NCBI GenBank assembly: GCA_964020085.1
Contig: OZ026596.1
Coordinates: 41,306,343-41,370,342 of the forward strand
Direction: 5' to 3'
Source: Micromussa lordhowensis
Taxonomy: Eukaryota; Cnidaria; Anthozoa; Scleractinia; Lobophylliidae
DNA: 64,000 bases
This document shows, piece after piece, positions 33,196-59,659 of this stretch. The position numbers and the translations under genes are program-made. Position 1 is the first letter of the stretch; each line of letters starts with the position of its first letter. The notes beneath the pieces were generated by a model that saw only the letters and a list, made by a program, of their open reading frames with translations, had not been told where the DNA came from and ran no database searches.

Positions 33196-33678
33196 TCAGG
33201 ACATTTTAGCGTCATACATCTTTAAATATTTATCAACAATTGGACTATTATCAATCACAAAATTGTCAACACTTGTCATTTGATTAATTAAACTTTCTCG
33301 GTTAAGATCACCTGAGCGCATCGCTTCTCGAATCATTATTAACAAATGCTGGTAACTTTGATAGGCATAGGTACAATTTTGAATTTTTAAGTCTAAACCT
33401 TTGTGTTCCATGTATCCTTTAACTAATAATGCCACTGTACTAATCGCTATTAGACTTATACCACCAGTAGCAATAGCGCTAGCAATCCCACCTGAAGCAG
33501 TTAGGACAGAGAGTGAATTACCAATGAATTTGAGCAATTTGAATCTTTTGTAAGCCCTTTTGAAAGCCCAACATTTCCTATGATAGCTTAGATAATAAGA
33601 CTTTAGTTCATCTACTTCATCAGTCGATAATTTGTCTGAAATATGATTCCAATCGAAAACATTCTTTTTAGCCACCAT
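33196..33678 (-). CDS. Two-helix membrane protein (160 aa), conserved in both Polintons
   Basis: A basic, aromatic N-terminal region (YYLSYHRKCWAFKRAYKRF) is followed by two hydrophobic segments (about residues 51-70 and 74-87). Next come ALLVKGYMEHKGLDLK and a helical tail with YAYQSYQHLLIMI. The outer element's 144-residue protein at 56850 has the same layout and the matching ALVKGWSDFKKYSHK block, so the two are homologous. A role in membrane modification or virion membrane passage is possible. The start has ATATAATG. Confidence 0.7.
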   Translation of the reverse strand: MVAKKNVFDWNHISDKLSTDEVDELKSYYLSYHRKCWAFKRAYKRFKLLKFIGNSLSVLTASGGIASAIATGGISLIAISTVALLVKGYMEHKGLDLKIQNCTYAYQSYQHLLIMIREAMRSGDLNRESLINQMTSVDNFVIDNSPIVDKYLKMYDAKMS

Positions 33679-33696
33679 TATATTATTTTATTATAT

Positions 33697-33957
33697 TTAT
33701 AAATTAAAAACAATTTGATCACTATCATAGCCCATTTGGATTAATTCATCATATATTTTTTCAGTTTGATCACCTTGAAGGTTTACAGTTTCATCTTTAA
33801 TAAAACCGTTACACGCTAACTTTTTCTTCCAATCTTTTAAATTAAAGCCTTCAATCTTTTCAAATGAGGTGATTGATTTTTTTCCCCTCTTTACGAGAGA
33901 AATTTTAATAAACTTTCTACTTTCATCTATCAAAGAAGATAAACTTTTGATATCCAT
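33697..33957 (-). CDS. eIF1/SUI1-like translation initiation factor
   Basis: An 86-residue protein matching the eIF1 (SUI1) fold across most of its length. A basic loop-1-like segment VKRGKKSITSFEKIEGF (22-38) is followed by a KKKLACNGFI block (ACNG at 48-51), LQGDQ (60-64) and a terminal strand DQIVFNL. Cellular eIF1 carries the same order of FACNG, LQGDQ and a final beta strand, and is only slightly longer. eIF1 binds the 40S P-site region and polices start-codon choice. A viral copy could favour messages with very short leaders, which fits this element's start-codon-proximal promoters. It sits in the leftward block 20 bp upstream of the membrane-protein gene. It could be a captured host gene, but the AT-rich codon use matches its neighbours. 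Confidence 0.8.
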   Translation of the reverse strand: MDIKSLSSLIDESRKFIKISLVKRGKKSITSFEKIEGFNLKDWKKKLACNGFIKDETVNLQGDQTEKIYDELIQMGYDSDQIVFNL

Positions 33958-34009
33958 CTATTCTTTGGATAAGATAAATTTTTCTAAAATGCGTGACAAA
34001 AAATGACAA

Positions 34010-34285
34010 AACCCTGGTCGGGGGTGCTCGGTGGCTGTTACTTGCCTAGTCTCGGCTAGGACTTTCGCGCCGCTGACAAGGCGGCTGTCGCTCGCGTGTT
34101 TGAGATCCCGAAAGACCTCTGAGCACCCCCAGTTATCTACTGGGCCGGGACGGGTTCACCCGAGGGTTATCACCGTAGACGGTCTCACCCTACTATCCCT
34201 AACAAGCGCCTGCACGTGCCGTATCAGGATTCAGGGGCGGCCATTCCCCACCTCCAAAAGCACCACCATTTGCTCGCTGTTTCTC
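34010..34285 (-). ncRNA. Candidate structured RNA gene (Pol III type 3-like)
   Basis: A sharply GC-rich island in AT-rich DNA with no supported coding frame. On the minus strand TATAAATA lies at 34311-34304. The octamer ATGCAAAT lies at 34476-34469, about 190 bp before a predicted start near 34280. TTTT and TTTTTT tracts at 34013-34003 could terminate Pol III. The RNA has a long closing stem (GGGGGTGCTC with GAGCACCCCC) and hairpins CCTAG/CTAGG, GCCGC/GCGGC, ACCGT/ACGGT and CGGGT/ACCCG. I find no match to U1, 7SL, 7SK, RNase P or tRNA. A SINE insertion is the main alternative. Confidence 0.45.
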
Positions 34286-34501
34286 TACTCAATTCAATTG
34301 GAATATTTATATTGCACCAACCCGGTTTTCTCGAGCATGTGGTGCACTTTTTTCATCCACCCACGCTTCACATATAAGACACGGTTCATCCACCCATGCG
34401 CATCAGGCAAGCCATTAATTTAGCGTGGGTGGATGAAGCGTTTCAAATATCTGACGTGTCTGAAACTCATTTGCATCAGACACGCTTCATATATTTTCAT
34501 A
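34286..34501. promoter_or_regulatory. Promoter-like inverted repeats upstream of the RNA candidate
   Basis: Contains inverted copies of a TTCATCCACCCACGC word (about 34346-34362, with its complement at 34422-34438) and an octamer-type ATTTGCAT (34469-34476). A second pair of GACGTGTCTGA / TCAGACACG words flanks the octamer. Confidence 0.4.
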
Positions 34502-35266
34502 CTAGACATCAATTTGAATCAATAAGTTTACCATCGCGTGTGTTACAGAAGAATTCGATGTTTTGCTTCGAAAATTGATCCTGTCGCCCGCTCGTATCGT
34601 AATCGGATCGCTGAAAATAGTCATCTTTGACCATTCATCCACAGATTTGACAATTTTTAAATCTTTATCCGTGCCATTAAGAACTAAGCCAACGATCACT
34701 TCGGATGCTTGATGATTGCCAGCACAAACACAAATGCTACCACGAACTATTTTACCGTCTACAGGACTAGGCCAACCATATTGCTTATTTCGCTCACATC
34801 CATTACCGAAACTCCATTGGAGAGAACCTTTAATCAGTGGTCCATTCTCTTCTGCATAGACGGTGATGAACGGGTATGTTTTTTGCGTATTAGCTGCTAA
34901 ATTATTATCTTGCGTCTTAGTCTCTAAATCATTGTAATCGACTTTGCTTTTTAATGCATCATTGAATTCGATTGCTAAAGTTCCTAAATCAGTAATTAAA
35001 GCGTAATCCTTTAAAGCTGATGAGTTAGTCTTTTTAGCTAGTTCATTGTTAACGTATGTAGTTGCTGCTTTTGTCTTTAATAAATCAGATACGAAACGTT
35101 TAGTGGTTGCGTCGTGATCATCCATTGGAGCGGAAATGTTAGTTAATCTCTTGTTTTGTAAATGGAAATGGTTGTCTGGAGTTAATTTTATGCCTATTCC
35201 TTTTTTAACCTTTTCTACTTTTCCTGTCGTTGATGGTTTGTCATGTTGTCCATTAGTAAACCCCAT
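34502..35266 (-). CDS. Short fibre-like protein (254 aa)
   Basis: The N-terminus (MGFTNGQHDKPSTTG, then GIGIKLTPDNHFHL and KRLTNISAPMDDHDATTKRF) parallels that of the 1117-residue fibre next to it. This argues for a shared capsid-anchoring module. A coiled or shaft-like middle follows, then a C-terminal beta-rich domain (GSLQWSFGNG... ITIRAGDRINFRSKTS) that would be the receptor-binding head. The ATxKxxV unit is the repeat style of phage tail fibres. It starts in a run of TATATATATG. Long plus short fibre genes side by side recall two-fibre adenoviruses, by analogy only. Confidence 0.7.
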   Translation of the reverse strand: MGFTNGQHDKPSTTGKVEKVKKGIGIKLTPDNHFHLQNKRLTNISAPMDDHDATTKRFVSDLLKTKAATTYVNNELAKKTNSSALKDYALITDLGTLAIEFNDALKSKVDYNDLETKTQDNNLAANTQKTYPFITVYAEENGPLIKGSLQWSFGNGCERNKQYGWPSPVDGKIVRGSICVCAGNHQASEVIVGLVLNGTDKDLKIVKSVDEWSKMTIFSDPITIRAGDRINFRSKTSNSSVTHAMVNLLIQIDV

Positions 35267-35282
35267 ATATATATATATTTAT

Positions 35283-38200
35283 TTATATAATAGTTCCTTG
35301 ACTGTTTTCAAATTCTTTCACATTTTCAAATGCTGTACTATTATTATCCCAAACATTCTTTGTTACCAATCCTCTCACCTTAGTGAAAGGATTATCATCT
35401 ACATTTATTCTTCTTATAGTTGGCAGTCCACTACTATCAGTAAAAAAATTATTAATAATAATTGGAGCACTAATTCCACTAAAAATTAGTTTCATATGAG
35501 TGTCTTTTACCCAAATCCAAAATAGGACTTGCTTTCCTAAAGCGTTATTTGGAATATTAAATGTTCTTAAAGATGGTTCATCTATTGTAGGATTACGTGA
35601 AATTACGACTTTGCTTTTATCAACATGAATATGTTCAAAGCCAAGTAAGTTCTTATATCTAATACTTATAGTCATTACACTATTTGTAGTTGTGCTATGT
35701 TGAAATACATAATAAAAAGTTAAATCACCTTTGTTATCACCAGTAGTTACAAATGCATATGTATTTGGTGTTTTACCTTCATTACTATCAGAAAAATACA
35801 AATCTTTTATTAAAGAAATCTTTGAATCATTACTTAATATATATTTTACTATTAATTCTACTAAATTTTTATTTTCATTAATAGTAGGATTTTCTTTTGC
35901 TATTTCACTATTTACTTTTACAATTTCACCATCAACATATTTTACAACATTATCTTCTGTTTCATTTAGTTGTTTCACATTAACAGCATCACCGTTTTCA
36001 TTCCCATCAGATAATCCTTTTATCTGACGATTACCCATATCTATAGATGCTTCATAATAGACGATTTTGTTTCTGATGGTATAGAATCTATCCCAAATTT
36101 TCGAGTCAACATCATTCTGATGACCGGTGACACCATAAAGGACTACAAAGATGTCTGTTTCTGCATCATAAGGAGGGTTCTTGTACTTTAAAGTTAAATC
36201 AATATCTAAATCAATAATCCCAATGTTTCCATATTTGTGAAAATTCACTATTGTTCTACTGTGATCGGAAAAAGTATTTGTATTATTACGTGAAACATTC
36301 AAAGTTTCAGATACAGCGTCAACAACCACTTCGTCATGATCTACTTTATCATTGTAATACATTTCAAAAGCTAATGTATACTCACCTAAATCTAACGATT
36401 TTAAATCAATAGTTAATCGGGTGCTATAATAACCGATAGCAGAGTCATACTTAATTTTAAATTGATAAGTAGCTTTGTTGATATCATAGTAATCTTTGTC
36501 GACTTTTCTTACTTTGGTAATATCATCATCATCTTCCTTAAATAAATCATCATCCATGACAAAAGAGAATTCATTATCTTGTCGGTTTGCTTTAATATTC
36601 AGTTCTTCAAATTCACTAACTTTGTATTCAATAAAAGATCTAAGTACTGAGTTATTATCAGTAACTCTCCTATTAACATAGTTAACATTAGTTGCATGTG
36701 TGTTATCTGATGAATTTGGATCTTTCAAGCGGATAATGCTATGATTAGCCATATCAAGATTTCCTTCCATGTCTCTATCTCCTAAAAGTGGTAGATAAGT
36801 AGATTTTGCATCACCAACTGTTAGGGCTGCGTCGTCTACAGAACTACTACTAATTCCAGTGATAGCATGATCACCCATTTGGAGACTTCCTGTCATTGAT
36901 CTGGAACCATTTAAAGGTAAATTCAAATTATCACCATTGTCAACATAAGTTTTATTAACAGCATCATCACCACTAACTGGATTTGGTAAACCATAAAGAT
37001 AACTATTATTCATATTAATTGGACTATTACCATCAGCAACCATGGTTAATCTACCACAATTTGTAATGAGATTATTATTCATGTTTAGATCACCTGTCAT
37101 AGGCCTTGAACCATCCAATTTTAATACATCTGTAGGTAGCTTACTTATTTCTGCTTGGACAAATGCCTTGGAGACTAAATCATTTGTACCAAAAATATTG
37201 ACACCATATGGTTCAGTATTTATTATTCTTTTACCTTTTAAGTCATAGTCATCACCTTTTAATTTTAAAAAGTTTTCATTAACATAAAGTTTATTAACAG
37301 CCATTTTAGAATCTTTTAAAGCATTAGGGTAATCAGTGATTGGGACATCATCTTGAGTCTCTAAATCTGTTATTTTTTTACTACCAATATTGAGATCTCC
37401 TGTCATAGCGCGTGAACCATCTACTTTGAGATAAAGACTTAAATCAGGCTGTGGTATGGAAGCAATTTGACTTTCTAAATAAGTCTTTGTCACAGGTTGC
37501 TGCGCCCCAGTTGGAATAGGTAAGCTAAAAATCCTATTTCCATTCATAGAAAGATTACCAGTCATGTTTTGGCTTCCGTTTAGGAGTAATACTTCTAACC
37601 TATCTGCTTTTCTAGAAGATAAATCATTAATAGCAATATCCTGTTTAGCGTCTTCATCGTCAACATATTCTTTGGTTGTTGCATCTTTAGGGTCAGTAGG
37701 ATTACCAATATTGATTATCTTTTCATTATTCATATTGATCGGTTCAAAATTTAATATTGTTCCTGAAAAATCAGTACTTTTAACATTAAATAATCTATGA
37801 TCAAAACTAGTCCTTTGTATTCCTTTGACACATCTACTAAAAAATAGAAATTTAAAATTAGAGTTACTGGAACCATAATATCGAAATTGTAAACGGATGT
37901 TCACATCTCTTTTCGAACTATTAAATATTATGTAAGCTTTTGCGTAATTGCTAAACCAATCATGACTAAAATCAATTATGTTTGCATTACCAGTGACATT
38001 TGTAAATAATAGCCTATCTGAATCACCATCTGTAACTATATTTGTTCCATCATATCCAAATATTTCAAAAACGATAGAATAATTAGGATCTATTTCTAAA
38101 TTGTTCACTAGTCGAACAGTAGAATAAGCATAACCAGATTGCGCCCCTTCTCGAGGCGCTTCTAATAGTTCAAAATGATCAGTGTGCCCAGGAATAGGTA

Positions 38201-38636
38201 TAGATCCTTTAGTACATTCTGCTTTATCACCAAAATCTTTATAAAAAGTAAAACTAGGTTGCAAATGATAATTTGTCCTATGATCTGTTGTCATCTCCTT
38301 TAATTGTTTTAGAGGTACAGCATCATTATCATTAGTAGCATCTTCTAAATCACTAATTTTATGATTATTCATATTTAAATGACCAGTCATTGAAGTTGTT
38401 CCATCTCTTTTCAGATAAGGTGACAAATCAATAGCTGATAGGTTATTATCAACATACTCCTTTGTAGCTGCATCATTTTTATCGATAGGAGCAGCTACTT
38501 CAGTTAATCGCTTACTATCAATATCAAAATTACCATCATCAGTTAGACTAAATCCAATTCCAGGTAAACCAGGATCACCTTTTTCACCTCTACCACTTGT
38601 TGATGATGATTCAAGTTGCCCATTACTATAACCCAT
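35283..38636 (-). CDS. Long fibre protein with phage-tail-fibre-like repeats (1117 aa)
   Basis: It begins MGYSNGQLESSSTSG, then a short collagen-like tract GRGEKGDPGLPGIGF and the unit APIDKNDAATKEYVDNNL. The shaft holds at least six M(T/E)GxLxM repeats (for example SMTGHLNMNNHKI, NMTGNLSMNGNRI, AMTGDLNIGSKKI, PMTGDLNMNNNLI, SMTGSLQMGDHAI, DMEGNLDMANHSI). They alternate with DAxTKxYVD-like units, the pattern common in tailed-phage fibres. Two or three beta-rich inserts (about residues 150-290, 690-880 and 960-1070) may be lectin-like domains. It probably forms trimeric spikes for host attachment. The frame is intact and the leader is TATATTATATATG. It is far longer than usual Polinton genes other than PolB. 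Confidence 0.75.
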   Translation of the reverse strand: MGYSNGQLESSSTSGRGEKGDPGLPGIGFSLTDDGNFDIDSKRLTEVAAPIDKNDAATKEYVDNNLSAIDLSPYLKRDGTTSMTGHLNMNNHKISDLEDATNDNDAVPLKQLKEMTTDHRTNYHLQPSFTFYKDFGDKAECTKGSIPIPGHTDHFELLEAPREGAQSGYAYSTVRLVNNLEIDPNYSIVFEIFGYDGTNIVTDGDSDRLLFTNVTGNANIIDFSHDWFSNYAKAYIIFNSSKRDVNIRLQFRYYGSSNSNFKFLFFSRCVKGIQRTSFDHRLFNVKSTDFSGTILNFEPINMNNEKIINIGNPTDPKDATTKEYVDDEDAKQDIAINDLSSRKADRLEVLLLNGSQNMTGNLSMNGNRIFSLPIPTGAQQPVTKTYLESQIASIPQPDLSLYLKVDGSRAMTGDLNIGSKKITDLETQDDVPITDYPNALKDSKMAVNKLYVNENFLKLKGDDYDLKGKRIINTEPYGVNIFGTNDLVSKAFVQAEISKLPTDVLKLDGSRPMTGDLNMNNNLITNCGRLTMVADGNSPINMNNSYLYGLPNPVSGDDAVNKTYVDNGDNLNLPLNGSRSMTGSLQMGDHAITGISSSSVDDAALTVGDAKSTYLPLLGDRDMEGNLDMANHSIIRLKDPNSSDNTHATNVNYVNRRVTDNNSVLRSFIEYKVSEFEELNIKANRQDNEFSFVMDDDLFKEDDDDITKVRKVDKDYYDINKATYQFKIKYDSAIGYYSTRLTIDLKSLDLGEYTLAFEMYYNDKVDHDEVVVDAVSETLNVSRNNTNTFSDHSRTIVNFHKYGNIGIIDLDIDLTLKYKNPPYDAETDIFVVLYGVTGHQNDVDSKIWDRFYTIRNKIVYYEASIDMGNRQIKGLSDGNENGDAVNVKQLNETEDNVVKYVDGEIVKVNSEIAKENPTINENKNLVELIVKYILSNDSKISLIKDLYFSDSNEGKTPNTYAFVTTGDNKGDLTFYYVFQHSTTTNSVMTISIRYKNLLGFEHIHVDKSKVVISRNPTIDEPSLRTFNIPNNALGKQVLFWIWVKDTHMKLIFSGISAPIIINNFFTDSSGLPTIRRINVDDNPFTKVRGLVTKNVWDNNSTAFENVKEFENSQGTII

Positions 38637-38657
38637 ATATAATATACTAAATTAAAT

Positions 38658-38999: not shown

Positions 39000-39000
39000 C

Positions 39001-39636
39001 CTATATATTTTCATTGAAATTTTTTCTGATTGTCTTTTTTGTCTTATCAATGTACGCAAAACTATAAGGCTCACTAGTCGCACTCTCGAATCGCTTCTTA
39101 GGTACATTGACTTCTTTACACATTCTTGCTGTCTCTGCATTACTTGGAGAGTCAAAAATACAAAAATGAGAGCAATTCAACCTGATGTCTTTGGGAGTGA
39201 GATAATAAGATTGACTTAAATAGATTACACTACAATTTTTATGACGACCACCAACAAAATATTCAATGAGTGGTTTTTGGTTTCTTTCACAAGCGTAGTC
39301 ATCAAAGATAACTATTTTTTGGTTATCATTATCTAGGCTTTCTAGAGGAATGACATCACTATTGCTCTCTTCTATAACATCATAACCAGCCTCTTCTGAA
39401 ATGGGTCGAAATGTTTCTAATAGTTGTCTGTACTTCGGTTGCTCGAGATTTTTAGAAAACAAGTAAATCTTATCATAGTAGAGTAGATTATAAAGCATAT
39501 GCATAAGAACGTTAGTTTTACCACAACCGCTTGGTCCACAAATTAACATTCGAAAAGTGTCTGAAGGCATATAAGGTAGCAGTCGTTTGAAATTGCGGTC
39601 ATTATTAGAAGCTGAATCATAATTAGGAATTTTCAT
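39001..39636 (-). CDS. ATPase: FtsK/HerA-type packaging ATPase (inner Polinton)
   Basis: A 211-residue A32-like ATPase. Walker A is GPSGCGKT (residues 34-41), Walker B is IVIFDD (108-113), and the sensor-like CSVIYLSQSYYLTP follows. It would translocate genome DNA into the capsid. It is the first gene of the leftward block, divergent from the PPxY gene at 39707 across a 70-bp AT-rich gap. The start is TATATAGATG. Confidence 0.92.
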   Translation of the reverse strand: MKIPNYDSASNNDRNFKRLLPYMPSDTFRMLICGPSGCGKTNVLMHMLYNLLYYDKIYLFSKNLEQPKYRQLLETFRPISEEAGYDVIEESNSDVIPLESLDNDNQKIVIFDDYACERNQKPLIEYFVGGRHKNCSVIYLSQSYYLTPKDIRLNCSHFCIFDSPSNAETARMCKEVNVPKKRFESATSEPYSFAYIDKTKKTIRKNFNENI

Positions 39637-39706
39637 CTATATAATTAATATTTTTTTAATAAATGTTGCATATTATTTCACATAATATAAAAAATATAAA
39701 TATTAT
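39637..39706. promoter_or_regulatory. Divergent promoter between the two gene blocks
   Basis: A 70-bp, nearly pure AT gap with taattatataG on the minus side and ataaatattatATG on the plus side. Confidence 0.5.
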
Positions 39707-40732
39707 ATGAGTCTCTCAAATTGGAAACGATTAGCTCAGAAGCGGACAGAGACTGGAAAGATGAAGAATCAGCTATATGATGAGATCACTGAAGAGAAGA
39801 TAAAGAGTAAGACCTCTGACGCAAGGATAACAAAATCTTTTAGACTTGATGAAATCATAGAGGGTTTAAGGGCACAAAAGCCTAAGAATAGACCGCAAAT
39901 GAGAATACGTCCTGCCCCCGCAGGTAAACCAGATGAAATTGATTATGCACCTGAAGTAGATCCATATGAAGATATGGATGTGGAAGGATTATTAGATCTC
40001 CAAGATTACGTAGCGCCCCAGGCAGAAAAACAAATAATACCTAAAGGCGCGCCACCAAAATATGAAATGGATCCTAGTTTTTGGAGAGGAGATGAATCTT
40101 TACCACCAGAATATTCTTTTGTGGAAGAAGGACCTTTAGCAATTGAATCACCACCTGATGATGATGAAGATTTAGATAGAGGAGATATTAATAGAATTTT
40201 AGATAGTGCAAATCTTCCTAACTATGATGATGTTGAAATGAGATTATCCCAACCAGAAATGACACCAGTTAAACGTAGTAAATATCTCGAGAGTAACATA
40301 AAAAGAGCAAATTCTGAAATAAGCAGTATTACAAGTAAATTTAAGACAAATACAACTAATAGACTAAAACAAGCCATAAAAAAAGGATTGCCAAAAGATG
40401 TAATAGAAAAGCTAGAGCGAGAAAAGGATATGGCTCATAAATTTGCTGATAGTAGACTAAAACCTATTCAAGAATATAGAGACTATCTAAAAGTACAGAA
40501 AAAGAAAAGTACAAAGGGAAGTGGCGTCAAGAGGGGAAGTGGTGTCTATTTCTATAATGATGCTCAAGAATTACTAAAGAAATTAACACTAATTATTGGC
40601 GAAATGGAAGCAGGCAATACAAGTGTCAAGATGAGAAATATGGGTCAAACTATCTTAGACGCTCTATTAAGAACAAAATCAATAAATAAGTCGCAATATC
40701 AAAAGTTAGTGAAAAAATATTTCGGGGTTTAG
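39707..40732 (+). CDS. PPxY late-domain protein (341 aa)
   Basis: An acidic N-terminal half contains two PPxY motifs, PPKY (116-119) and PPEY (133-136). In many viruses such motifs recruit NEDD4-type ubiquitin ligases for budding or egress. The C-terminal half is basic and helical. It ends in a conserved-looking module (FYNDAQELLKKLTLIIGEME... ILDALLRTKSINKSQYQKLV) that I associate with cnidarian Polinton proteins. It may be a scaffold or tegument-like minor capsid protein. First gene of the rightward block, with a TATTATATG start. Confidence 0.7.
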   Translation: MSLSNWKRLAQKRTETGKMKNQLYDEITEEKIKSKTSDARITKSFRLDEIIEGLRAQKPKNRPQMRIRPAPAGKPDEIDYAPEVDPYEDMDVEGLLDLQDYVAPQAEKQIIPKGAPPKYEMDPSFWRGDESLPPEYSFVEEGPLAIESPPDDDEDLDRGDINRILDSANLPNYDDVEMRLSQPEMTPVKRSKYLESNIKRANSEISSITSKFKTNTTNRLKQAIKKGLPKDVIEKLEREKDMAHKFADSRLKPIQEYRDYLKVQKKKSTKGSGVKRGSGVYFYNDAQELLKKLTLIIGEMEAGNTSVKMRNMGQTILDALLRTKSINKSQYQKLVKKYFGV

Positions 40733-40754
40733 TAAATATTATTTACATTAGTAT

Positions 40755-41522
40755 ATGGAGAGAGAAATCTCATTAAGCAGTTTTGCAGTTAAAGATGAAC
40801 CTGGTAATCGACCTGGTGATTTTACTACAAGGTTTTCTAGAACGCTGGACTATGAACACAGTGATGGGATTTGGTATATTGGTTTTAATAAAATTATTTC
40901 AATGGCTTTTACATGGACAAATATAAATTCTGGTTATAGCAATCAAAAGATAGCTTACAGTAAAGACGGTGGGAAAACATTTACAGATATTGATTTTCCA
41001 AAAGGAGTTTGGGATTACACTGATATTGATAATTACATTAAGGAAAAGACTAAAACAGTCCGCGGTGATGGTGATGAAGAATTTCCAATTACGGTGACTT
41101 TTGATGAACCAACTTTTAGAGTCTTAGTGACTTTAGACGCTAACTATCAGCTTGACCTGCGTAAATCTAATTTTGGTAAACTAATAGGATTCGATAAGGT
41201 GATCTTAAGAGATGAGAGAAACGTTAGTACTAAGATACCTAACCTATCAGAAGATACAGATGTCTTAAATATTCATTGTGATTTAGTCTCTGATTCATTA
41301 GTAGATGGGAGAGAATCAGATATTGTTTTTAGTTTTGGTACAGGAACGCTGAGACCTTCTTACAATTTTACACTTGAACCGCGTCGTGTTATATTTAATC
41401 CTATCAATAAAACAAGAGTTTCAAGCGTTCGAATCTATGTAACTGATGGTTTAAGAAGACCAGTCTATTTAAATCATGCTGACACAGCATTTTCATTAAT
41501 CTTAAAAAAAGTTCCATTCTAA
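40755..41522 (+). CDS. Penton-like minor capsid protein (inner Polinton)
   Basis: A 255-residue protein with a beta-rich pattern starting EISLSSFAVKDEPGNRPGDF, IWYIGFNKIISMAFTW and FPKGVWDYTDIDNYIKEK. This is the typical layout of Polinton single-jelly-roll vertex proteins. It ends in a predicted strand FSLILKKVPF. It lies just before the core-like and major capsid genes. The start motif is weak (TAGTATATG). Confidence 0.7.
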   Translation: MEREISLSSFAVKDEPGNRPGDFTTRFSRTLDYEHSDGIWYIGFNKIISMAFTWTNINSGYSNQKIAYSKDGGKTFTDIDFPKGVWDYTDIDNYIKEKTKTVRGDGDEEFPITVTFDEPTFRVLVTLDANYQLDLRKSNFGKLIGFDKVILRDERNVSTKIPNLSEDTDVLNIHCDLVSDSLVDGRESDIVFSFGTGTLRPSYNFTLEPRRVIFNPINKTRVSSVRIYVTDGLRRPVYLNHADTAFSLILKKVPF

Positions 41523-41547
41523 TTAATTTTATTAATACTAATATATA

Positions 41548-41955: not shown

Positions 41956-41984
41956 AGAAAAAAAAATCTGATAAAAAATATATA

Positions 41985-43229: not shown

Positions 43230-43289
43230 TCTAAAAAAAAATAAAAAAAAAAATATATTTAGAAAAAAAAATATTTTAATATAATATAT

Positions 43290-44000: not shown

Positions 44001-44093
44001 TTAATAACAACTATTCCAAAGTCATAGACTATTCCAAAGTCATAGAATAAATATTATTTATGAATTTTAAAAAAAGTCCATAAATAATATATA

Positions 44094-44807: not shown

Positions 44808-44836
44808 AAAAGCCTAAATTCCATAAAGATATCCCA

Positions 44837-45268
44837 ATGAGTAATTTTGATCTTTTAGATTGGTGTAAATACTTAGAGATACCTATCAAGAATGTTTTAA
44901 GTAGAGATCAGACTGTACCACATCAGCATAAGTTAGCGCTTTTTATCTATAATTTAGAACCTCATTATATGAGTGGTAGTCATTGGGTTACAACCTATGT
45001 TCGTGATGGAACAATAAATTACTTTGACTCTTTTGGTATGCCACCTTTTCAAGAGTTGGTAAACCATGCAAAAGAGAAAAACTTAAATTTATTACACCAA
45101 AACCATCAAATACAGAATCTCTATACTACAACCTGTGGCTATTTTTGCTTGTATTTCTTGAATGAAATGCATAAAGGAGTAGATTATTTCGATTTATTGC
45201 AAGTTTTTAGCTTTGACACCAAAGAGAATGAAAAATTCATAGAAAACTATTTTGCTAAATTACTTTGA
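44837..45268 (+). CDS. PRO: Adenain-like cysteine protease (inner Polinton)
   Basis: From the internal ATG the protein has 143 residues, with candidate His49 (GSHW), Asp64 (YFDSFG) and Cys100 (TTCGYFC), the C5/C48 fold order. The frame is open upstream through the A17 tract. A -1 frameshift in the preceding gene would therefore produce a fusion, from which the protease could release itself. The ATG at 44837 lacks the promoter motif that precedes its neighbours. Both modes are possible. Confidence 0.85.
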   Translation: MSNFDLLDWCKYLEIPIKNVLSRDQTVPHQHKLALFIYNLEPHYMSGSHWVTTYVRDGTINYFDSFGMPPFQELVNHAKEKNLNLLHQNHQIQNLYTTTCGYFCLYFLNEMHKGVDYFDLLQVFSFDTKENEKFIENYFAKLL

Positions 45269-45435
45269 AGACTTCTCATGTTTTTTAAATCTCGTTTCAA
45301 ACTATTTCTCATATTTCTCACTCTTTTAGCTTCTCCAGAACAACATAAAAAGGCAAGTTTTCTATAAAGAAGTTTGTAATGTTTATACATCGCTTCTATT
45401 CTACGTATTTCTTTTTCAATGACAATTTGTTCCAT
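45247..45435 (-). CDS. Small basic coiled-coil protein (62 aa)
   Basis: A leftward frame overlapping the protease end by 22 bp. It is helical and charged (EKEIRRIEAMYKHYKLLYRK) with a CCSGEAKR turn. It is the only leftward gene in the right-hand block. It has a good TTATATAATG start, which is the main reason to accept it. Confidence 0.5.
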   Translation of the reverse strand: MEQIVIEKEIRRIEAMYKHYKLLYRKLAFLCCSGEAKRVRNMRNSLKRDLKNMRSLQSNLAK

Positions 45436-45485
45436 TATATAATATATTAAAATAAATAAAAAAAATAATAAAAATTATTATATAG

Positions 45486-45722
45486 ATGAAAAGCTATTGT
45501 GTAAAACAACGAAAACAGACAGAGTGCGTTCCTGGTTCAGAAAGGGTTGTACAGGCAAGAAATGGTCGTGCCATGATGAAATGTAAATGCGCAGAATGTG
45601 GGATAACAAAAACTAAATTTGTCCCTTCAGGTACGGTAGGAAGAGGTAGAAAAGGAAAAGGGCTATTACTGGGTAAAAACAGTCCATTTAAGGGAATTCC
45701 CCTCATAGGAGCTATATTATAG
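45486..45722 (+). CDS. Zinc-ribbon (DUF5679-like) peptide with hydrophobic tail (78 aa)
   Basis: The N-terminus MKSYCVKQRKQTECVPGSE, then KCKCAECGITKTKFV, is a zinc-ribbon-like module resembling DUF5679. The C-terminus (GLLLGKNSPFKGIPLIGAIL) is hydrophobic. The same N-terminal module starts the next gene, where it is fused to phospholipase A2. It is probably a small structural protein. The start is TTATATAGATG. Confidence 0.6.
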   Translation: MKSYCVKQRKQTECVPGSERVVQARNGRAMMKCKCAECGITKTKFVPSGTVGRGRKGKGLLLGKNSPFKGIPLIGAIL

Positions 45723-45779
45723 TAAAGTAACTTTGTTAACAATAGATTAACATATATTTATTATAATATTAATTAATAT

Positions 45780-46532
45780 ATGTTATCTTATTGCGTTCGA
45801 CAAAGAAAAAGGACAGAATGTATACCTAATTCTGAAACTTTTGTAATTACAAAAAATGGTAGAAATGCAATGCGATGTATTTGTGCTGAATGTGGAATTA
45901 CAAAATTTCGTTTTATATCTAAAGCGGAAATGCAAGGAAGCGGTTTTGATGAACTAATTGTCAAAGGGTTGGCTGCTGGTGCAAAAGGATTGTACAACCT
46001 AGGTAAAAGGGGAGCTAGTAGAGCAATAAAATCTGACTATGTAAAAGACAAAGTTAAAGGCATTGGTAAAAGGTATTTGAATAGAGCAATTGACTCACTG
46101 GCAGATGATCTTTCTAAAAAAATCAGTGGAAGGGGAAGGGGAAGGGGTCTTGATATTCATAAAGCAATAGGTAAGTTACCTAAACCGAAAGCTGGTTGGA
46201 CTCTTCCAGGTCACAAATATACTGGTCCTTACAATGATTTAGAACGACAAGTAAAATGGGATCGTGATACTGGGCAAATCTATGAAATCTATGATCAGCC
46301 AACAGGTAAGACAGATGCTATAGCCATGCAACACGATGTTGATTACTCAGTATGTGCTGATAAGGGAGGTAATGTAAAATCATGTAAAAATGTTGCTGAC
46401 AAGAAAATGGTCCGAGCTTTAGATGCAATTCCCTGGAATGAGAGACAGTGGGGCCATTGGTTAGCTAGAAACACTATTAATACAAAGCAAAAACTTGGTT
46501 TAGGAGTAAAAAAAAAAACGCTAAAAATTTAG
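45780..46532 (+). CDS. Zinc-ribbon plus parvovirus-type phospholipase A2 protein
   Basis: A 250-residue protein. Residues 1-48 repeat the zinc-ribbon module of the preceding gene (MLSYCVRQRKRTEC, then RCICAECGITKFRFIS). The middle is basic with a GRGRGRG run. The C-terminal domain has a calcium-loop-like GHKYTGPYNDL (144-154) and the catalytic DxxAxxHDxxY pattern (D179, A182, H185, D186, Y189) of the parvovirus VP1 phospholipase A2. Parvoviruses use that enzyme to escape endosomes, so virion entry is the likely role. The frame ends in an A11 tract. The integrase frame continues -1 from it without its own usable start. Confidence 0.8.
   Translation: MLSYCVRQRKRTECIPNSETFVITKNGRNAMRCICAECGITKFRFISKAEMQGSGFDELIVKGLAAGAKGLYNLGKRGASRAIKSDYVKDKVKGIGKRYLNRAIDSLADDLSKKISGRGRGRGLDIHKAIGKLPKPKAGWTLPGHKYTGPYNDLERQVKWDRDTGQIYEIYDQPTGKTDAIAMQHDVDYSVCADKGGNVKSCKNVADKKMVRALDAIPWNERQWGHWLARNTINTKQKLGLGVKKKTLKI
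46508..46518 (+). other. A11 tract, candidate -1 slippage site joining PLA2 and integrase
   Basis: Eleven A residues. In frame they read AAA three times, then ACG CTA AAA ATT TAG. A -1 shift enters the open integrase frame, which is closed upstream by TAA at 46478-46480. Confidence 0.55.
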
Positions 46533-47479
46533 ACACATGGGAAGGTCTGGCTAATGAGTTACACAAACCTATAAAACGAAATTTTACCAAGCGAAGAGTC
46601 ATTTCACATAATGTAGATGATATCTGGTGTTCAGACTTAGTTGATATGCAAAAGCTTAGCAAATGGAACCGAGGTTATAAATATCTACTAATGGTCTTAG
46701 ACCTTTTCAGTAAATATGGTTGGATAGTACCTCTAAAGACAAAAACAGGTTTAGAAGTCTCTAAAGCGTTTGAAAGCTTATTTTTCTCTAATAAGCCTAA
46801 AATGTTATGGGTAGACAAAGGAAAAGAATATTATAACAAAAATGTGTTGGATCTCTTATCTAAGGATAAGATAAAGGTCTATTCCACTGAAAACGAAGAG
46901 AAATCAGCAGTTTGTGAGAGATGGAATAGAACTATCAAAGATAAAATGTATAAGAGATTCACTATGCAAAACAATACAGTCTACGTTGACATCCTTCCGA
47001 AAATACTCGCCTCTTACAACAACAGCCGACATAGATCAATAGGAATGACGCCTATCCAAGCTAGAAAACCTGAAAACTATGGAAAAGTTTATTTTAATTT
47101 ATATGGTGATTTAGCGAGAGAAATCAAAAAAACAAAAACAAATAGAAAACCCGAATTTAGAGTAGGTGATAGAGTCCGAATAAGCAAATACAAAAGGGTG
47201 ACCTTTGATAAAGGCTATACTCCTAATTGGACTGAAGAAGTTTTCATCATAGACGAAATTAGATTCACTAATCCTATTACTTATAAGATAAAAGACTTAA
47301 ATGGTGAAGTGATTAAGGGTACTTTCTACAGAGAAGAGTTACAAAAGACAGATCAAGAGGTCTATAGAATAGAGAAAATTATCAGAAAGTCAAAAGGAAA
47401 AGCATTAGTCAAATGGAAAGGTTACCCAGACGAATTTAACAGTTGGGTGCCAGCTGGAGATTTAAAAAAAATTATTTAA
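46517..47479 (+). CDS. INT: Retrovirus-like integrase with chromodomain (inner Polinton)
   Basis: From the A11 tract the frame encodes an ANELHKPIKRNFTKRRV block, the first catalytic Asp in WCSDLVDM, the second in MLWVDKGKEYY and the Glu in VCERWNRTIKDKM. An SH3-like part (RVGDRVRISKYK, WTEEVFII) and a C-terminal chromodomain (YRIEKIIRKSKGKALVKWKG, SWVPAG) follow. The first ATG in frame (46646) lies just after the catalytic Asp block, so starting there would give a dead enzyme. No TATATA-ATG motif precedes it. Expression as a PLA2-integrase fusion by frameshift is therefore likely, unless a base is missing in the A-run. The HHCC zinc module is not evident. Confidence 0.85.
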   Translation, partial: NAKNLDTWEGLANELHKPIKRNFTKRRVISHNVDDIWCSDLVDMQKLSKWNRGYKYLLMVLDLFSKYGWIVPLKTKTGLEVSKAFESLFFSNKPKMLWVDKGKEYYNKNVLDLLSKDKIKVYSTENEEKSAVCERWNRTIKDKMYKRFTMQNNTVYVDILPKILASYNNSRHRSIGMTPIQARKPENYGKVYFNLYGDLAREIKKTKTNRKPEFRVGDRVRISKYKRVTFDKGYTPNWTEEVFIIDEIRFTNPITYKIKDLNGEVIKGTFYREELQKTDQEVYRIEKIIRKSKGKALVKWKGYPDEFNSWVPAGDLKKII

Positions 47480-47511
47480 AAAAAATTAGAATATTATAAA
47501 TAATTATATAA

Positions 47512-47721
47512 ATGGAAAAAACAGAAGAACAATTGAAACGAGAAAAATGGAACAAAATTACCAATGAAAGACTGAAAAATACTGAATGGTACTGTGATGT
47601 ATGTGGAAATGGAAAAAATTACACTTATAGAGGAAAATATATGCATCTAAAGACAAAGAAACATGAGCGTAACATTCTAAAATACACTAATCCAGTTACT
47701 GGTACACTAATTGATTTATAA
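47512..47721 (+). CDS. Small C2H2 (U1-type) zinc-finger protein (69 aa)
   Basis: It contains WYCDVCGNGKNYTYRGKYMH followed by LKTKKHERN, a CxxC...HxxxxxH finger. The adjacent PolB begins with a homologous finger (HWYCNTCKKKYSKGGKYQH, LKTDFHKL). A PolB-accessory or DNA-binding role is possible. It starts in TTATATAAATG. Confidence 0.65.
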   Translation: MEKTEEQLKREKWNKITNERLKNTEWYCDVCGNGKNYTYRGKYMHLKTKKHERNILKYTNPVTGTLIDL

Positions 47722-47776
47722 TAAATAAAAAATTAAGAATTTAAAAAAAAAATTAGACATATATTATTATATATAG

Positions 47777-50700
47777 ATGGATTTTAAAGTTAAAATTAAA
47801 CCCAAAAAGATATCTGTGGACACATTACCAAAACCATCTCATTGGTATTGTAATACATGCAAGAAAAAATATTCAAAAGGGGGAAAATATCAGCATTTAA
47901 AGACAGATTTTCATAAGCTTAATGAAGCAAAAAAAGGTCCGCAAGGTCAGCCACTACCAGTCCCACCTGTCAACCCACAACCACGAAGATCTAAGAAACA
48001 TGGAGATTATGTTGAAAATCGACTAATCCGATCAATTGCAGAAAGGAGACTAAGAGACTCATACCTTGGAGGTACTTTAATAGATGATCAGATAAGTCCC
48101 TCAGTCAATTTACCAGAACCATTAAGACCTACTGAATATAGACCACCTGCCCCAGTACCAAAACCACGTACAAAACCACCAACCGCTCCAGTGCCTTTAC
48201 CGAGGCTAAAAATAATAAGACCTATAAAACCTGTACCTACAAGACTTCAAAGAAAGGTTAAAAATGTGATTGATCAAATCGCTCCATATTATAGGCCTGA
48301 AACTATAAGAGAATTCAGAAGAAATTTGAAATTTATACCTAAAGACATCACTATTACTGAGCGATCCAATGCATTAAGAGGTAATGTCAAATCTTATGAA
48401 GTGCCAATTATTAATACTTATGACCCAGGGGTACAGTTAAATAGTACTAAACGAGCAATATTTGATCTTTTAATGAAATTATTAACAGTCAAAAGGGGAT
48501 TTAAATACAATACTACACTAAGGGTTCGATTATCAAAGAGTACTGAGGATGGTGTCATTTACAGAGAACCTTATTTTAACGCTGGCCCTTTTACGGTGAC
48601 CAATAGACTAGATATAGAAGAGTCTATCGATAATGGTATTGAAAGAATTTTAGAGTTAATAGCTGTTTGGCTATCTGAAGGTTCTGGTTGGGTATTTGAA
48701 TCAGTAAAATTACATATCATTAATATTGTCTCTTACTTTCCATTAAGAGGATCATCATATATTGAACTACCTGAAGAACTACGTAACCCTATGAAGGGTT
48801 TAATCAATCTCAAAAATACAGACAATAAATGTTTCCTATGGTGTCATAATAGGCATTTAAATCCACTTATAGTTCATCCGGAAAGAATAACCAAGGCAGA
48901 TCGAGAATCTGTCAAACGGTTAGATTACACTGGTATCACTTTTCCAGTCACTGTAAAAGATATTTATAAGATTGAAAAGCAAAATAAGATTAATATCTGT
49001 GTATTTGGTTATGATGGAGAAGCTTATCCTATCAGAATATCAGAAACTAATTTTACAGACCACTTGGAATTACTATGGATTGAAGAAGGAAACAAGAGCC
49101 ACTATGTGCTCATCAAGGATTTCGATCGATTTATGTTTTCATTCAATGATCACAAAGAAAAGAAATATTTTTGTTTGCGTTGTCTACATTGTTGTAGTTC
49201 TGCTAGTGTCCTAGAAGATCACAAGCAAGATTGCCTGCTCCTTAATGGAGCTCAAGCGATAAAGATGCCCGAGGCAGGATCAAAAATTTATTTTAAAAAT
49301 CACAAAAAAATGTTACCTGCACCTTTCGTAATTTACGCTGATTTTGAATCAATCACAGAAAAAATAGACGGTTGCCTACCTAGTGATGATAAATCTTACA
49401 CTAGTACTTATCAAAGTCATAAGGCTTGTAGTTACGGATATAAATTAGTCTGTAGATATGATAATAGTTATTCCAAACCAGTAGAAATATACCGTGGAGA
49501 AGATTGTATCGAAAAATTTATCATGAAAATGTTGAGTGAAGTAAAAGATTGTATAAAAATAGTTATAGAACATTTCCAGAAACCATTAGTTATGACTGAT
49601 AAAAATGAAACACATTTCCAAAATTCTACTATATGTCATATTTGTGAGAGAAAATTTAATGAAGAAAAAGATAAAGATAAACCTTCAAAACAAAAAGTTA
49701 GAGATCACTGCCATATTACAGGTAAATATCGTGGTGCTGCTCATAGTAATTGTAATCTTAAATGGTCTATTAGTGCAGAAAATTTAAAAATTCCAGTAAT
49801 ATTTCATAATCTTAAAGGTTATGACTGCCATTTTATCATGCAAAATATTGGTCATTTAATAAGACAAGATTTTAATATTAATGTTGATGTTATAGCAAGT
49901 AATTTTGAGAAATATATTGGCTTTAGACTAGGTAATTATTTGACTTTCATTGACAGTTTTTCATTTATGAGTCAGAGTTTAGATCGACTAAGCAGTAATT
50001 TAAGTGATAATGCATTCTTTTATTCAAAGAAAGCTTTTCCAAATGATGATCAATTTAGATTAATAAAGCGAAAAGGTGTTTACCCTTATGATTACATGGA
50101 CTCATTCCAGCGATTCAGTGAGAAGTCTTTACCAGCAAGAGAAGATTTTTATAGTATTTTGAATGATACAAATATTTCAGAGAGTGACTACTCACACGCA
50201 AAGGAGGTCTGGAGTACTTTCCAAATCAGAGATATGGGAGAGTATCATGACCTATATTTGCGGACTGATGTTCTACTCTTAGCGGATGTATTTGAAAATT
50301 TCAGAACTATATGTTTGAAGGACTATGGGCTAGATCCTTGTCATTATTATTCAGCGCCTGGGTTATCTTGGGATGCATTACTGAAAATTACTAATGTAAA
50401 TCTGGATTTAATTTCAGATATAGATCAACAACTATTCATTGAAAAGGGTATGAGAGGTGGTATTAGTACTATTACACACAGACATGCTGTACCAAACAAC
50501 AAGTATATGAAGGGTTACAATCCAGAGTTGGAAAGTAGTTATTTAATGTATTTGGATGCAAATAATCTTTATGGATGGGCTATGTCACAGTCACTACCAG
50601 TATCTGATTTCAAATGGATTCCCTCTGAAGATTTCATCTTAGAAAATTACACAAATGATACTAGAAAAGGTGTCATTTTAGAGGTAGATTTAGAATATCC

Positions 50701-51799
50701 GGAAGAGCTACACGATTTGCATAATGATTATCCATTAGCACCAGAAAAGATTTTAATCACTGATGATATGTTGTCAAAGTATTGCAAAGATTTAAAAGCG
50801 AAAGAAAATATTAGCAGTGGTAGAGTTCACAAGTTGGTTCCTAATCTAAGGAATAAAGAAAAGTATGTATTACATTACAGAAATTTGCAGCTTTATTTAT
50901 CTCTTGGTATGAAGTTAAAGAAGATTCATAGAGTATTGGAATTTTCCCAGCGGCCTTGGATGAAAAGATACATCCATTTAAACACTGAAAAGAGAACAAT
51001 GGCTAAGAATAGTTTTGAGAAAGATTTCTTTAAACTTATGAATAATTCTGTGTTTGGTAAAACCATGGAAAACCTAAGAAAAAGATCTAATATCAAATTA
51101 GAAACTGATCCGGATCATTTATTGAAATTGACAAGGCAACCAATGTATGTTTCTAGTAAAATATTTGATGAAAATTTAGTTGGGGTACAAATGAAAAAGG
51201 CTAGACTAGTCTTAGATAAACCCTCTTATGTTGGATTCTCTATTCTAGATCTAAGTAAAACATTAATGTATGACTTCCATTACAACTATATCAGAAAAAA
51301 ATACCCTGATGCAAAGTTACTTTTTACTGATACTGATTCTTTATTTTACCATATAAAAGCAGAAGATCTTTATAGTGATTTATATAAAGATAAAGAAAGG
51401 TTTGACAATAGTGATTATCCCAAATCGTCAGAGTTCTTTTTTGCAGAAAATAAAAAAGTAATTGGTAAATTCAAAGATGAAGCAGCTGGTGATCCAATCA
51501 CTGAATTTGTTGGTCTAAAAAGTAAAATGTATAGTTACAAGACAGAAAACAAGGAAAACAAGACTGCTAAAGGTGTCAAGAAGAATGTCATTAAGAGTGA
51601 ATTATCTCTCTCTGATTATCGTGATACCTTACAAAAATGTAATACTATGAGGCATAAGATGCGAACTATCCGGTCAGAGTATCATCAGATATCTAGTTAC
51701 CAAATTAATAAAGTATCATTATCACCTTTTGATGATAAAAGATATATTTTAGATGATGGTATCAGTAGTTATGCATATGGAAATTTTAATATTTCATAA
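47777..51799 (+). CDS. PolB: Protein-primed DNA polymerase B (inner Polinton)
   Basis: 1340 residues. The N-terminal zinc finger is followed by a Pro-rich linker (PVPPVNPQPRRSKK, KPPTAPVPLPRLK) and a Polinton-type leader. Then come a C2H2-like KKYFCLRCLHCC block and Exo I (FVIYADFES). An HNH/endonuclease-VII-like insertion has CHICERKF and DHCHITGKYRGAAHSNCN. Exo II (HNLKGYDCHF), Pol A (YLMYLDANNLYGWAMSQSLP), Pol B (KLMNNSVFGKTMENLRKR) and Pol C (LLFTDTDSLFYHI) follow. All catalytic motifs are present. The nuclease insertion differs from the one in the outer PolB. The start is TTATATATAGATG. Confidence 0.96.
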   Translation: MDFKVKIKPKKISVDTLPKPSHWYCNTCKKKYSKGGKYQHLKTDFHKLNEAKKGPQGQPLPVPPVNPQPRRSKKHGDYVENRLIRSIAERRLRDSYLGGTLIDDQISPSVNLPEPLRPTEYRPPAPVPKPRTKPPTAPVPLPRLKIIRPIKPVPTRLQRKVKNVIDQIAPYYRPETIREFRRNLKFIPKDITITERSNALRGNVKSYEVPIINTYDPGVQLNSTKRAIFDLLMKLLTVKRGFKYNTTLRVRLSKSTEDGVIYREPYFNAGPFTVTNRLDIEESIDNGIERILELIAVWLSEGSGWVFESVKLHIINIVSYFPLRGSSYIELPEELRNPMKGLINLKNTDNKCFLWCHNRHLNPLIVHPERITKADRESVKRLDYTGITFPVTVKDIYKIEKQNKINICVFGYDGEAYPIRISETNFTDHLELLWIEEGNKSHYVLIKDFDRFMFSFNDHKEKKYFCLRCLHCCSSASVLEDHKQDCLLLNGAQAIKMPEAGSKIYFKNHKKMLPAPFVIYADFESITEKIDGCLPSDDKSYTSTYQSHKACSYGYKLVCRYDNSYSKPVEIYRGEDCIEKFIMKMLSEVKDCIKIVIEHFQKPLVMTDKNETHFQNSTICHICERKFNEEKDKDKPSKQKVRDHCHITGKYRGAAHSNCNLKWSISAENLKIPVIFHNLKGYDCHFIMQNIGHLIRQDFNINVDVIASNFEKYIGFRLGNYLTFIDSFSFMSQSLDRLSSNLSDNAFFYSKKAFPNDDQFRLIKRKGVYPYDYMDSFQRFSEKSLPAREDFYSILNDTNISESDYSHAKEVWSTFQIRDMGEYHDLYLRTDVLLLADVFENFRTICLKDYGLDPCHYYSAPGLSWDALLKITNVNLDLISDIDQQLFIEKGMRGGISTITHRHAVPNNKYMKGYNPELESSYLMYLDANNLYGWAMSQSLPVSDFKWIPSEDFILENYTNDTRKGVILEVDLEYPEELHDLHNDYPLAPEKILITDDMLSKYCKDLKAKENISSGRVHKLVPNLRNKEKYVLHYRNLQLYLSLGMKLKKIHRVLEFSQRPWMKRYIHLNTEKRTMAKNSFEKDFFKLMNNSVFGKTMENLRKRSNIKLETDPDHLLKLTRQPMYVSSKIFDENLVGVQMKKARLVLDKPSYVGFSILDLSKTLMYDFHYNYIRKKYPDAKLLFTDTDSLFYHIKAEDLYSDLYKDKERFDNSDYPKSSEFFFAENKKVIGKFKDEAAGDPITEFVGLKSKMYSYKTENKENKTAKGVKKNVIKSELSLSDYRDTLQKCNTMRHKMRTIRSEYHQISSYQINKVSLSPFDDKRYILDDGISSYAYGNFNIS

Positions 51800-51804
51800 T
51801 ATAT

Positions 51805-51990
51805 ATGCCTGTCCCTAATTTTAAAAAATTTTTAACTGAAGACCCACTTCATGATACTGATAGTAGTGACAGTGATTATAATCCTGATTCAGATGAGGAA
51901 TCGACGAGCAGTGAGGAATCAACGAGCAGTGAGGAATCAACGAGCAGTGAGAGTGAAGATTACTCTACTTTAAAGAATAAAGTATATTAA
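51805..51990 (+). CDS. Acidic Ser-repeat protein (61 aa)
   Basis: It is made largely of Asp, Glu and Ser, with three EESTSS repeats encoded by an 18-bp tandem unit (gaggaatcaacgagcagt). It resembles acidic casein-kinase-substrate tails. The start is ATAATATATATG, four bases after the PolB stop codon. It may partner the following transcription factor. Confidence 0.5.
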   Translation: MPVPNFKKFLTEDPLHDTDSSDSDYNPDSDEESTSSEESTSSEESTSSESEDYSTLKNKVY

Positions 51991-51995
51991 TTATT

Positions 51996-52985
51996 ATGAT
52001 GAACAAAGAGACCATTGGCAATCTACATCGTAAAAAAATTTCAGAAATTGTTCTCAAAGAAAAAAAAATACCAGATTTAAAAAAAAAAATTCTAAATTTA
52101 TCCATCAAAAAAGATTATTCTAGAATTGATCAAATTGAACAAATAAGGTTAGAAAATGAAATAAATGATATCAAAAATCTTCGTACTAGTTATTTATTAA
52201 AGAATGCTATTTTACTTTTTTTACATACAGAAAATAGAGCAAAACATTTTGTTGTTGATAATTCTTATTATAAAAGGTATAAATATAATATCTTCCCTGA
52301 TGAACTACAATACAGTGAAAATAATATAAATGAAGATAACTATTGTTATACATGTGAAAAATTTCGAGTATTGAACGTCGATGAAGGGATAAGTACTTGT
52401 CTAAGTTGTGGAATAAGCATAAATGTCTCAACAAATCCAGAAAAATCATCTATAAAAACCGCAGAAAATGATTACAAAAGATATAATCATTTTTGTGACT
52501 GTTTAGCCAATATCCAAGGCAAAGAAAGTTTTAAAGTCTCAGAAGATGTTATTAATAATATTTTCAAAGAAATCATTCGTGAAAGGATGGAAAATTCTTT
52601 GGAAAAGTTAACTGAATCAGATATCAAAAGACATCTTAAAAAACATCGTAAATTAAATTATTATAATCATACCACCCAAATATTGTATAGAATAACAAAA
52701 ATACCTCCATTACAAATGACTTCTATAATGGAAGAAAAAATGAAAATGAGGTTTTTACAAATTCAGGAGCCATTTGAATTATTTAAAGGTAAAAATAGAA
52801 GAAATTTCTTTTCCTATTCATATATCATTTATAAATTTTGTCAAATACTTGGATATAATGAATTTTTACCAAAGCTAAAATTGTATAAAGATCGTTTAAA
52901 ACTCTATGAACATGATAAAATTTGGAAAAAAATCTGTGAACATCTAGGTGGTGAGAACGCTGGTTGGAAATTTATCAAGTCTTAA
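51996..52985 (+). CDS. VLTF3-like viral late transcription factor
   Basis: A 329-residue protein with the layout of poxvirus/NCLDV VLTF3. A helical N-terminus is followed by a zinc ribbon YCYTC (C117, C120)...STCLSCG (C135, C138), then YKRYNHFCDCLANIQGKES. A long helical region ends in the family-typical RRNFFSYSYIIYKFCQILG, YKDRLKLYEHDKIWKKICEHL and WKFIK. In poxviruses VLTF3 is needed for late gene transcription. Here it is the last gene of the rightward block, 14 bp from the terminal repeat. It would fit with the TATATA-ATG motif at nearly all genes of this element. The start codon is doubled (ATGATG). The match is from memory of the family. Confidence 0.8.
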   Translation: MMNKETIGNLHRKKISEIVLKEKKIPDLKKKILNLSIKKDYSRIDQIEQIRLENEINDIKNLRTSYLLKNAILLFLHTENRAKHFVVDNSYYKRYKYNIFPDELQYSENNINEDNYCYTCEKFRVLNVDEGISTCLSCGISINVSTNPEKSSIKTAENDYKRYNHFCDCLANIQGKESFKVSEDVINNIFKEIIRERMENSLEKLTESDIKRHLKKHRKLNYYNHTTQILYRITKIPPLQMTSIMEEKMKMRFLQIQEPFELFKGKNRRNFFSYSYIIYKFCQILGYNEFLPKLKLYKDRLKLYEHDKIWKKICEHLGGENAGWKFIKS

Positions 52986-59653: not shown

Positions 59654-59659
59654 ACTGCT
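59654..59659. repeat. Target-site duplication ACTGCT (right)
   Basis: Identical to 11109-11114. Confidence 0.93.

Follow-up and report, generated by a model that had tools for sequence, protein, structure and literature searches.

The question raised by this locus is how a Polinton switches on its genes. To our knowledge, the way in which Polintons express their capsid genes is largely an open matter. In the window analysed here (64,000 nucleotides of the scleractinian Micromussa lordhowensis), a sequence-only reading had pointed to a TATATA motif fused to the start codons of about 16 of the 19 genes of an inner Polinton, and had likened it to the late promoters of poxviruses and their relatives.

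The motif-bearing element is a Polinton nested in a second, outer Polinton, the bounding repeats of which lie at 11114-11649 and 59079-59654. With its 5' AG and 3' CT ends, the inner element spans 32954-53232, i.e. slightly more than the interval 33678-52000 first assigned to the motif, and its GC content is about 0.32 versus about 0.40 across most of the remaining window. It carries terminal inverted repeats (TIRs), a 6-bp target-site duplication and genes for an integrase, a family B DNA polymerase (PolB), a double-jelly-roll (DJR) capsid protein, an A32-like ATPase and a protease, as do members of the Polinton/Maverick group; of these, the ATPase is above the Pfam cut-off, the capsid and integrase (rve) are below it, the protease hit is weak, and the polymerase is assigned only from its catalytic motifs. 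A GC-rich stretch (34020-34259; 58-63%) inside this 32% GC element is likely an insertion, and blastn revealed no second copy of it within the window. Two inverted-repeat clusters (27568-27833 and 55990-56378), built from a palindrome containing ACATGGAAATTTCCATGT, flank the inner element inside the outer one. Rfam and ARAGORN returned no matches over the window.

A Pfam scan of all 21 ORFs of the inner element identified, above the cut-off, A32-like ATPase, PLA2, chromodomain, SUI1, VLTF3 and DUF5679 (the latter in one of two ORFs), as well as T7-fibre and YadA-stalk domains, which sit in the long fibre-like ORF 35283-38636. The DJR capsid (E 3.1e-4), the rve integrase (E 9.7e-7) and the adenain protease (E 0.0086; its frame was scanned twice, from an upstream TTG and from its own ATG) were found below the cut-off. 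The ORF 47777-51799, which we take to be PolB from the catalytic motifs visible in its sequence, has no PolB match in Pfam, its sole match being an endonuclease VII stretch (PF02945, below cut-off); the same stretch was the sole match of PHROGs searches with eight ORFs. Homologues of the capsid protein numbered 2589 at E <=0.001. By eye, the small ORF 47512-47721 has a zinc-finger-like N-terminus in common with the adjoining polymerase ORF. The neighbouring ORFs 45486-45722 and 45780 both begin with a DUF5679-like N-terminus, and the N-termini of the fibre-like ORFs 34502-35266 and 35283-38636 are related.

Table 1. Features of the nested Polintons, in window coordinates
Feature	Position	Strand	Remarks
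Outer Polinton polymerase	11908-15885		Pfam PF03175, E 1.5e-42
Target-site duplication AGCTTC, left copy	32948-32953	.	6 bp, read from sequence
Left TIR of inner Polinton	32954-33186	+	233 bp; 100% complementary to 53000-53232
TA tract	33679-33683	-	abuts ATG of ORF 33196-33678 (-)
SUI1/eIF1-like protein	33697-33957	-	PF01253, E 4.1e-10; aIF1/eIF1 chains in PDB; start without motif
TA tract	35265-35278	-	at ATG of fibre-like ORF 34502-35266 (-)
TA tract	38635-38646	-	at ATG of fibre-like ORF 35283-38636 (-)
TA tract	39002-39008	-	2 nt before ATG 38999 (-); inside 3' end of ATPase ORF
TA tract	39638-39643	-	1 nt before ATG of A32-like packaging ATPase 39001-39636 (-)
TA tract	39704-39708	+	at ATG 39707
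Short TA tract	40752-40756	+	at ATG 40755; passes only if AT of ATG counts
TA tract	41541-41547	+	abuts ATG 41548
TA tract	41978-41984	+	abuts ATG 41985, start of major capsid protein ORF
TA-rich tract	43279-43291	+	at ATG 43290
TA tract	44087-44093	+	abuts ATG 44094
A17 run	44786-44802	+	ends ORF 44094-44807; protease frame open through run
Adenain-like protease frame	44837-45268	+	PF00770, E 0.0086, below cut-off
TA tract	45436-45447	-	abuts ATG 45435 (-)
TA tract	45479-45484	+	1 nt before ATG 45486
TA tract	45776-45781	+	at ATG 45780, PLA2-domain ORF
A11 run	46508-46518	+	ends ORF 45780-46532; integrase frame open through run
rve integrase + chromodomain frame	46646-47479	+	PF00665 29.4 bits (cut-off 32.6); PF00385 above cut-off
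TA tract	47505-47510	+	1 nt before ATG 47512
TA tract	47768-47775	+	1 nt before ATG 47777, presumed DNA polymerase B
Presumed family B DNA polymerase with endonuclease VII-like stretch	47777-51799	+	1340 aa
TA tract	51799-51806	+	at ATG 51805; overlaps polymerase ORF's last base
VLTF3-like late transcription factor	51996-52985	+	PF04947, E 2.8e-40; own start without motif
Right TIR of inner Polinton	53000-53232	-	233 bp; perfect inverted partner of left TIR
Target-site duplication AGCTTC, right copy	53233-53238	.	6 bp, read from sequence

The motif was scored, for all genes alike, as an alternating TA tract of at least 5 nt ending at most 2 nt upstream of the ATG or at most 2 nt within it; this criterion was set after the sequence had been viewed, the hexamer scan and the initial TATATA observation being less tuned. 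Such a tract occurs at 17 of the 21 ORF starts of the inner element (the exceptions being 33957 on the minus strand, 44837, 46646 and 51996), including all 12 start sites that had been named beforehand. It runs into the ATG in seven genes, abuts it in five and is separated from it by one base in four and by two bases in one. Exact TATATA is present between −12 and +2 at 13/21 starts, and it is the hexamer with the greatest excess in this interval (13 genes, versus an average of 0.74 for equally wide windows at more distal upstream positions, of which the final ones still overlap the motif). The start of the presumed DNA polymerase B also bears the motif, which is thus not confined to virion genes, and the late timing ascribed to it is putative. 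As had been claimed, the genes of the outer Polinton are devoid of it (0/11). In 12 of the 17 cases, the tract is found where same-strand genes are no more than 60 nt apart (down to 1 and 5 nt), one such tract overlapping the final base of the preceding gene and another lying inside the preceding ORF; a separate tract retained at each gene despite such tight spacing suggests that every gene has a promoter of its own. Runs of at least five A occur between −50 and −13 at 13/21 inner and 3/11 outer starts (T-runs, 3/21 and 1/11). Within 80 nt of the stops, AATAAA or ATTAAA was found for 5/21 inner and 3/11 outer ORFs, and a T7 run for none of the 21 inner ones.

In an element so poor in GC, with spacers as AT-rich as those used below for training, and with a tract at 7/54 of the ATGs lying outside ORFs, the tract could be a translation-start context or a mere AT-rich spacer, devoid of any promoter role. 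We regard this explanation as improbable, from the following lines of evidence. First, the tract is found at 28/764 of the remaining ATGs of the inner element (Fisher 1.5e-19 against the gene starts; 4e-8 for the ATGs outside ORFs), and at 13/132 of the ATGs matched for AT content (preceding 20 nt at least 80% AT) versus 17/18 of the gene starts of the same kind (1.8e-13). Second, when spacers above 72% AT (mean AT content 94%; both strands; motifs not removed) were used to train Markov models (orders 1-3), the binomial probabilities were 8e-9 to 3e-7 (order 3: 1e-7). Third, when the final 30, 40 or 60 nt were shuffled with dinucleotides preserved, none of 2000 replicates reached 17 genes in any of the six settings; this test used two earlier criteria, one of which scores 44837 and omits 40755, so that its 17 genes differ slightly. 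Fourth, among ORFs called regardless of the annotation, a tract precedes 12/17 of those of at least 100 aa in the inner element, 0/23 in the outer element and 0/7 in the flanks; at the 60-aa threshold, where many spurious ORFs are included, the values are 16/34, 1/54 and 0/18, respectively. Enrichment over composition-matched sequence, on which the initial observation had been made to depend, thus holds, and the motif is real, strong, start-proximal and, within this window, specific to the inner element. Regarding translation, Kozak-type contexts prefer A or G at position −3. The inner starts have the opposite, a T in 12/21, which argues against a Kozak role, and this role was rejected; the outer Polinton starts have A in 9/11, showing that this genome also has starts of conventional context. 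In addition, the register of the tract shifts by up to 4 nt, which would be more readily expected of an initiator than of a site contacted by the ribosome.

The ORF starts are predicted from the sequence, and one may ask whether they have been misassigned, the tract being the ordinary upstream TATA box of shorter ORFs. This we judge highly improbable: the first methionine of the capsid protein, directly preceded by the motif here, is invariant in a 24-row alignment (the window and 23 homologues), and it is implausible that 17 starts should all be shifted inward together.

Concerning the starts without the motif, the protease (44837) and integrase (46646) frames may not be separate units. Each of the two A-runs (A17 and A11) closes a preceding motif-bearing ORF in a frame other than that of the protease or integrase, and these junctions are possibly fusions made by slippage (of the polymerase or the ribosome), or cases of frame decay. 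If the two frames are not counted as units, then 17/19 genes carry the motif, to be compared with the 16 of 19 first claimed. The SUI1/eIF1-like gene starts downstream of the GC-rich stretch, and the 50 nt preceding its ATG are not GC-rich. As for the VLTF3-like gene, a start without the motif fits an activator made ahead of its targets. In a megavirus, a VLTF3-like gene falls in an expression cluster preceding the late one, according to the available text (PMC11464507).

The claim that the element encodes a VLTF3-like factor was confirmed: judging from its sequence and predicted structure, the 51996-52985 product is a genuine VLTF3-like protein. It comprises the C-terminal domain after a zinc ribbon, with four cysteines invariant in 27 rows, and has 92 homologues at E <=0.001. 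Its predicted structure (pLDDT 81.8, pTM 0.51) gave 37 matches at E <=0.001 in a viral fold library, most of the named ones being annotated as VLTF3 or late transcription factor, with modest whole-chain TM-scores (0.29-0.50). The African swine fever virus (ASFV) protein B385R ranked only 18th, behind VLTF3 proteins of several NCLDV groups, so that the VLTF3-like protein provides no special asfarvirus link. No fold match was found in the PDB at E <=0.001, and the only PDB sequence relatives were weak ribosomal L37Ae zinc-ribbon matches; the structure prediction thus speaks to family identity, not mechanism. In a 27-row tree, which included no named references, the protein groups with three ENA homologues (support 100/100). 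A tblastn search of phage records gave no match, and no locus of a relative was confirmed in viral and genome contigs. A possible further VLTF3, encoded at 57518-58009 in the outer Polinton (E 2.8e-4, filters off), was discarded: the alignment covers just a zinc-ribbon-like segment and not the VLTF3 core domain, and Pfam reports no VLTF3 there. The pairing of VLTF3 and motif rests on two elements, the inner one having both and the outer one neither, as far as found.

A VLTF3 in a Polinton is unusual, yet it has a precedent, as seen from the available parts of two papers: one states that VLTF2 and VLTF3 were undetected outside Nucleocytoviricota (PMC11253617), the other reports VLTF3 in adintovirus-like regions of Amoebidium (PMC11244446). 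The SUI1-like protein has seven homologues at E <=0.001. The homologue lists share one contig for VLTF3 and capsid (771906), one for VLTF3 and SUI1 (318183) and none for capsid and SUI1, with contigs matched on length only (92 VLTF3, 120 of 2589 capsid and 7 SUI1 rows), a weak hint that the three genes travel together. Since capsid homologues are far more numerous, many Polintons with a related capsid may lack VLTF3; the searches were word-limited, which bears on this comparison of counts.

Together, these data lead us to propose, with a probability of roughly 60%, that the TATATA tract is an NCLDV-type initiator, i.e. a core promoter placed at the start codon, and that VLTF3 recruits a polymerase from outside the element. 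Each inner gene would be transcribed separately from its own tract, with initiation inside the tract producing leaders of about 0-10 nt, possibly extended by AU slippage as in ASFV. The VLTF3-like protein would bring to the tracts a multisubunit polymerase supplied either by a co-infecting large DNA virus, in a virophage-like use of a helper, or by the host. Initiation in the tract, dependence on VLTF3, timing and the source of the polymerase are what we infer, the latter from the finding that no RNA polymerase subunit, capping enzyme, TBP or TFIIB has a Pfam match at E <=1 in the 21 inner ORFs. On the same finding, the earlier suggestion of a self-contained expression system is not supported.

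It is rather unlikely, in our view, that the host RNA polymerase II reads the motif in the nucleus as an unusual initiator, with the VLTF3-like protein as an adaptor and no helper virus. Such a scheme would agree with an element devoid of detectable RNA polymerase genes; with mriyaviruses, which have retained VLTF3 but no RNA polymerase subunits and whose replication is presumed to be nuclear (PMC11253617); and with the VLTF3 of the Amoebidium regions mentioned above. However, the outer Polinton uses nothing similar in the same genome, and the tract is not placed like a canonical Pol II TATA promoter: in 17/21 cases it ends within the ATG or at most 2 nt away from it, and since a TATA box precedes the transcription start by about 24 bp (PMC7163114), the starts would come to lie inside the ORFs.

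Returning to the proposed NCLDV-type initiator, the sequence-only reading was right about its start-proximal layout, and its likening to poxvirus promoters can be refined. Vaccinia late promoters, TAAAT(G), similarly combine an initiator at the start codon with a VLTF3 homologue, but the core is TATATA in the Polinton; TAAATG occurs at just 1/21 starts, and the poxvirus core was rejected. By analogy, the motif most closely resembles the ASFV late initiator TA(+1)TA, which goes with late 5' UTRs of 9 nt (median) and AU and AUAU slippage (PMC7163114). The likeness includes an alternating TA where transcription begins (a putative site in the Polinton), leaders that are AT-rich and very short (predicted here) and a VLTF3-fold protein, B385R, which may have a part in late initiation in ASFV, a role also proposed for A1 and A2 of vaccinia (PMC7163114). 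Unlike the Polinton, where none of these was found, ASFV encodes a polymerase, a capping enzyme and TBP/TFIIB relatives and uses T7 terminators, according to the parts of that paper drawn on here.

Mobile elements offer further comparisons, again from partial texts. TATATA itself is the late motif of pacmanvirus, found in the 100 nt preceding 165 ORFs and also in its transpoviron (PMC11788076), a mobile element that relies on an NCLDV, the late motif of which is ASFV-like. There, however, the region searched was 100 nt long instead of being confined to the start codon; the motif is intergenic, upstream of 6/12 predicted genes, and the transpoviron is not a Polinton. Mavirus and type 4 EMALE virophages likewise use one motif across the genes of an integrating Polinton-related element, but it is the CroV late motif TCTA (reported for type 4 mavirus-like elements; PMC8547959), whereas the inner Polinton encodes its own VLTF3-like factor and has no known helper. 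The Amoebidium adintovirus-like elements have VLTF3 alongside PolB and capsid genes, but the available text mentions no promoter motif (PMC11244446). The yeast pGKL linear elements have a short upstream control element per gene and polymerase slippage at starts, but they encode their own polymerase and the motif lies about 30-100 nt upstream (PMC6831550). The literature on Polintons, promoters, VLTF3 and virophages, to the extent that its text was available, yielded no description of a start-codon TATATA in Polintons, and the main texts of two papers on Polinton-like viruses (PMC4642659, PMC7805220) mention neither promoter nor VLTF.

Tentatively, we extend the proposal to a possible complete module of NCLDV-type late specificity, in which the TATATA initiator on most genes, VLTF3 and the eIF1-like factor would leave only the polymerase to be borrowed; the eIF1-like factor could, as we see it, aid the ribosome to start on almost leaderless mRNAs. 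If so, we would be dealing either with a virophage whose unseen helper has asfarvirus-like late promoters, or with a transposon that redirects the host Pol II. A uniform initiator together with VLTF3 leads to a direct prediction, namely very short, possibly AU-extended, mRNA leaders and dependence on a helper or on Pol II. NCLDV-style transcription control would then sit in an element of about 20 kb, which would inform the common history of Polintons, virophages and giant viruses.
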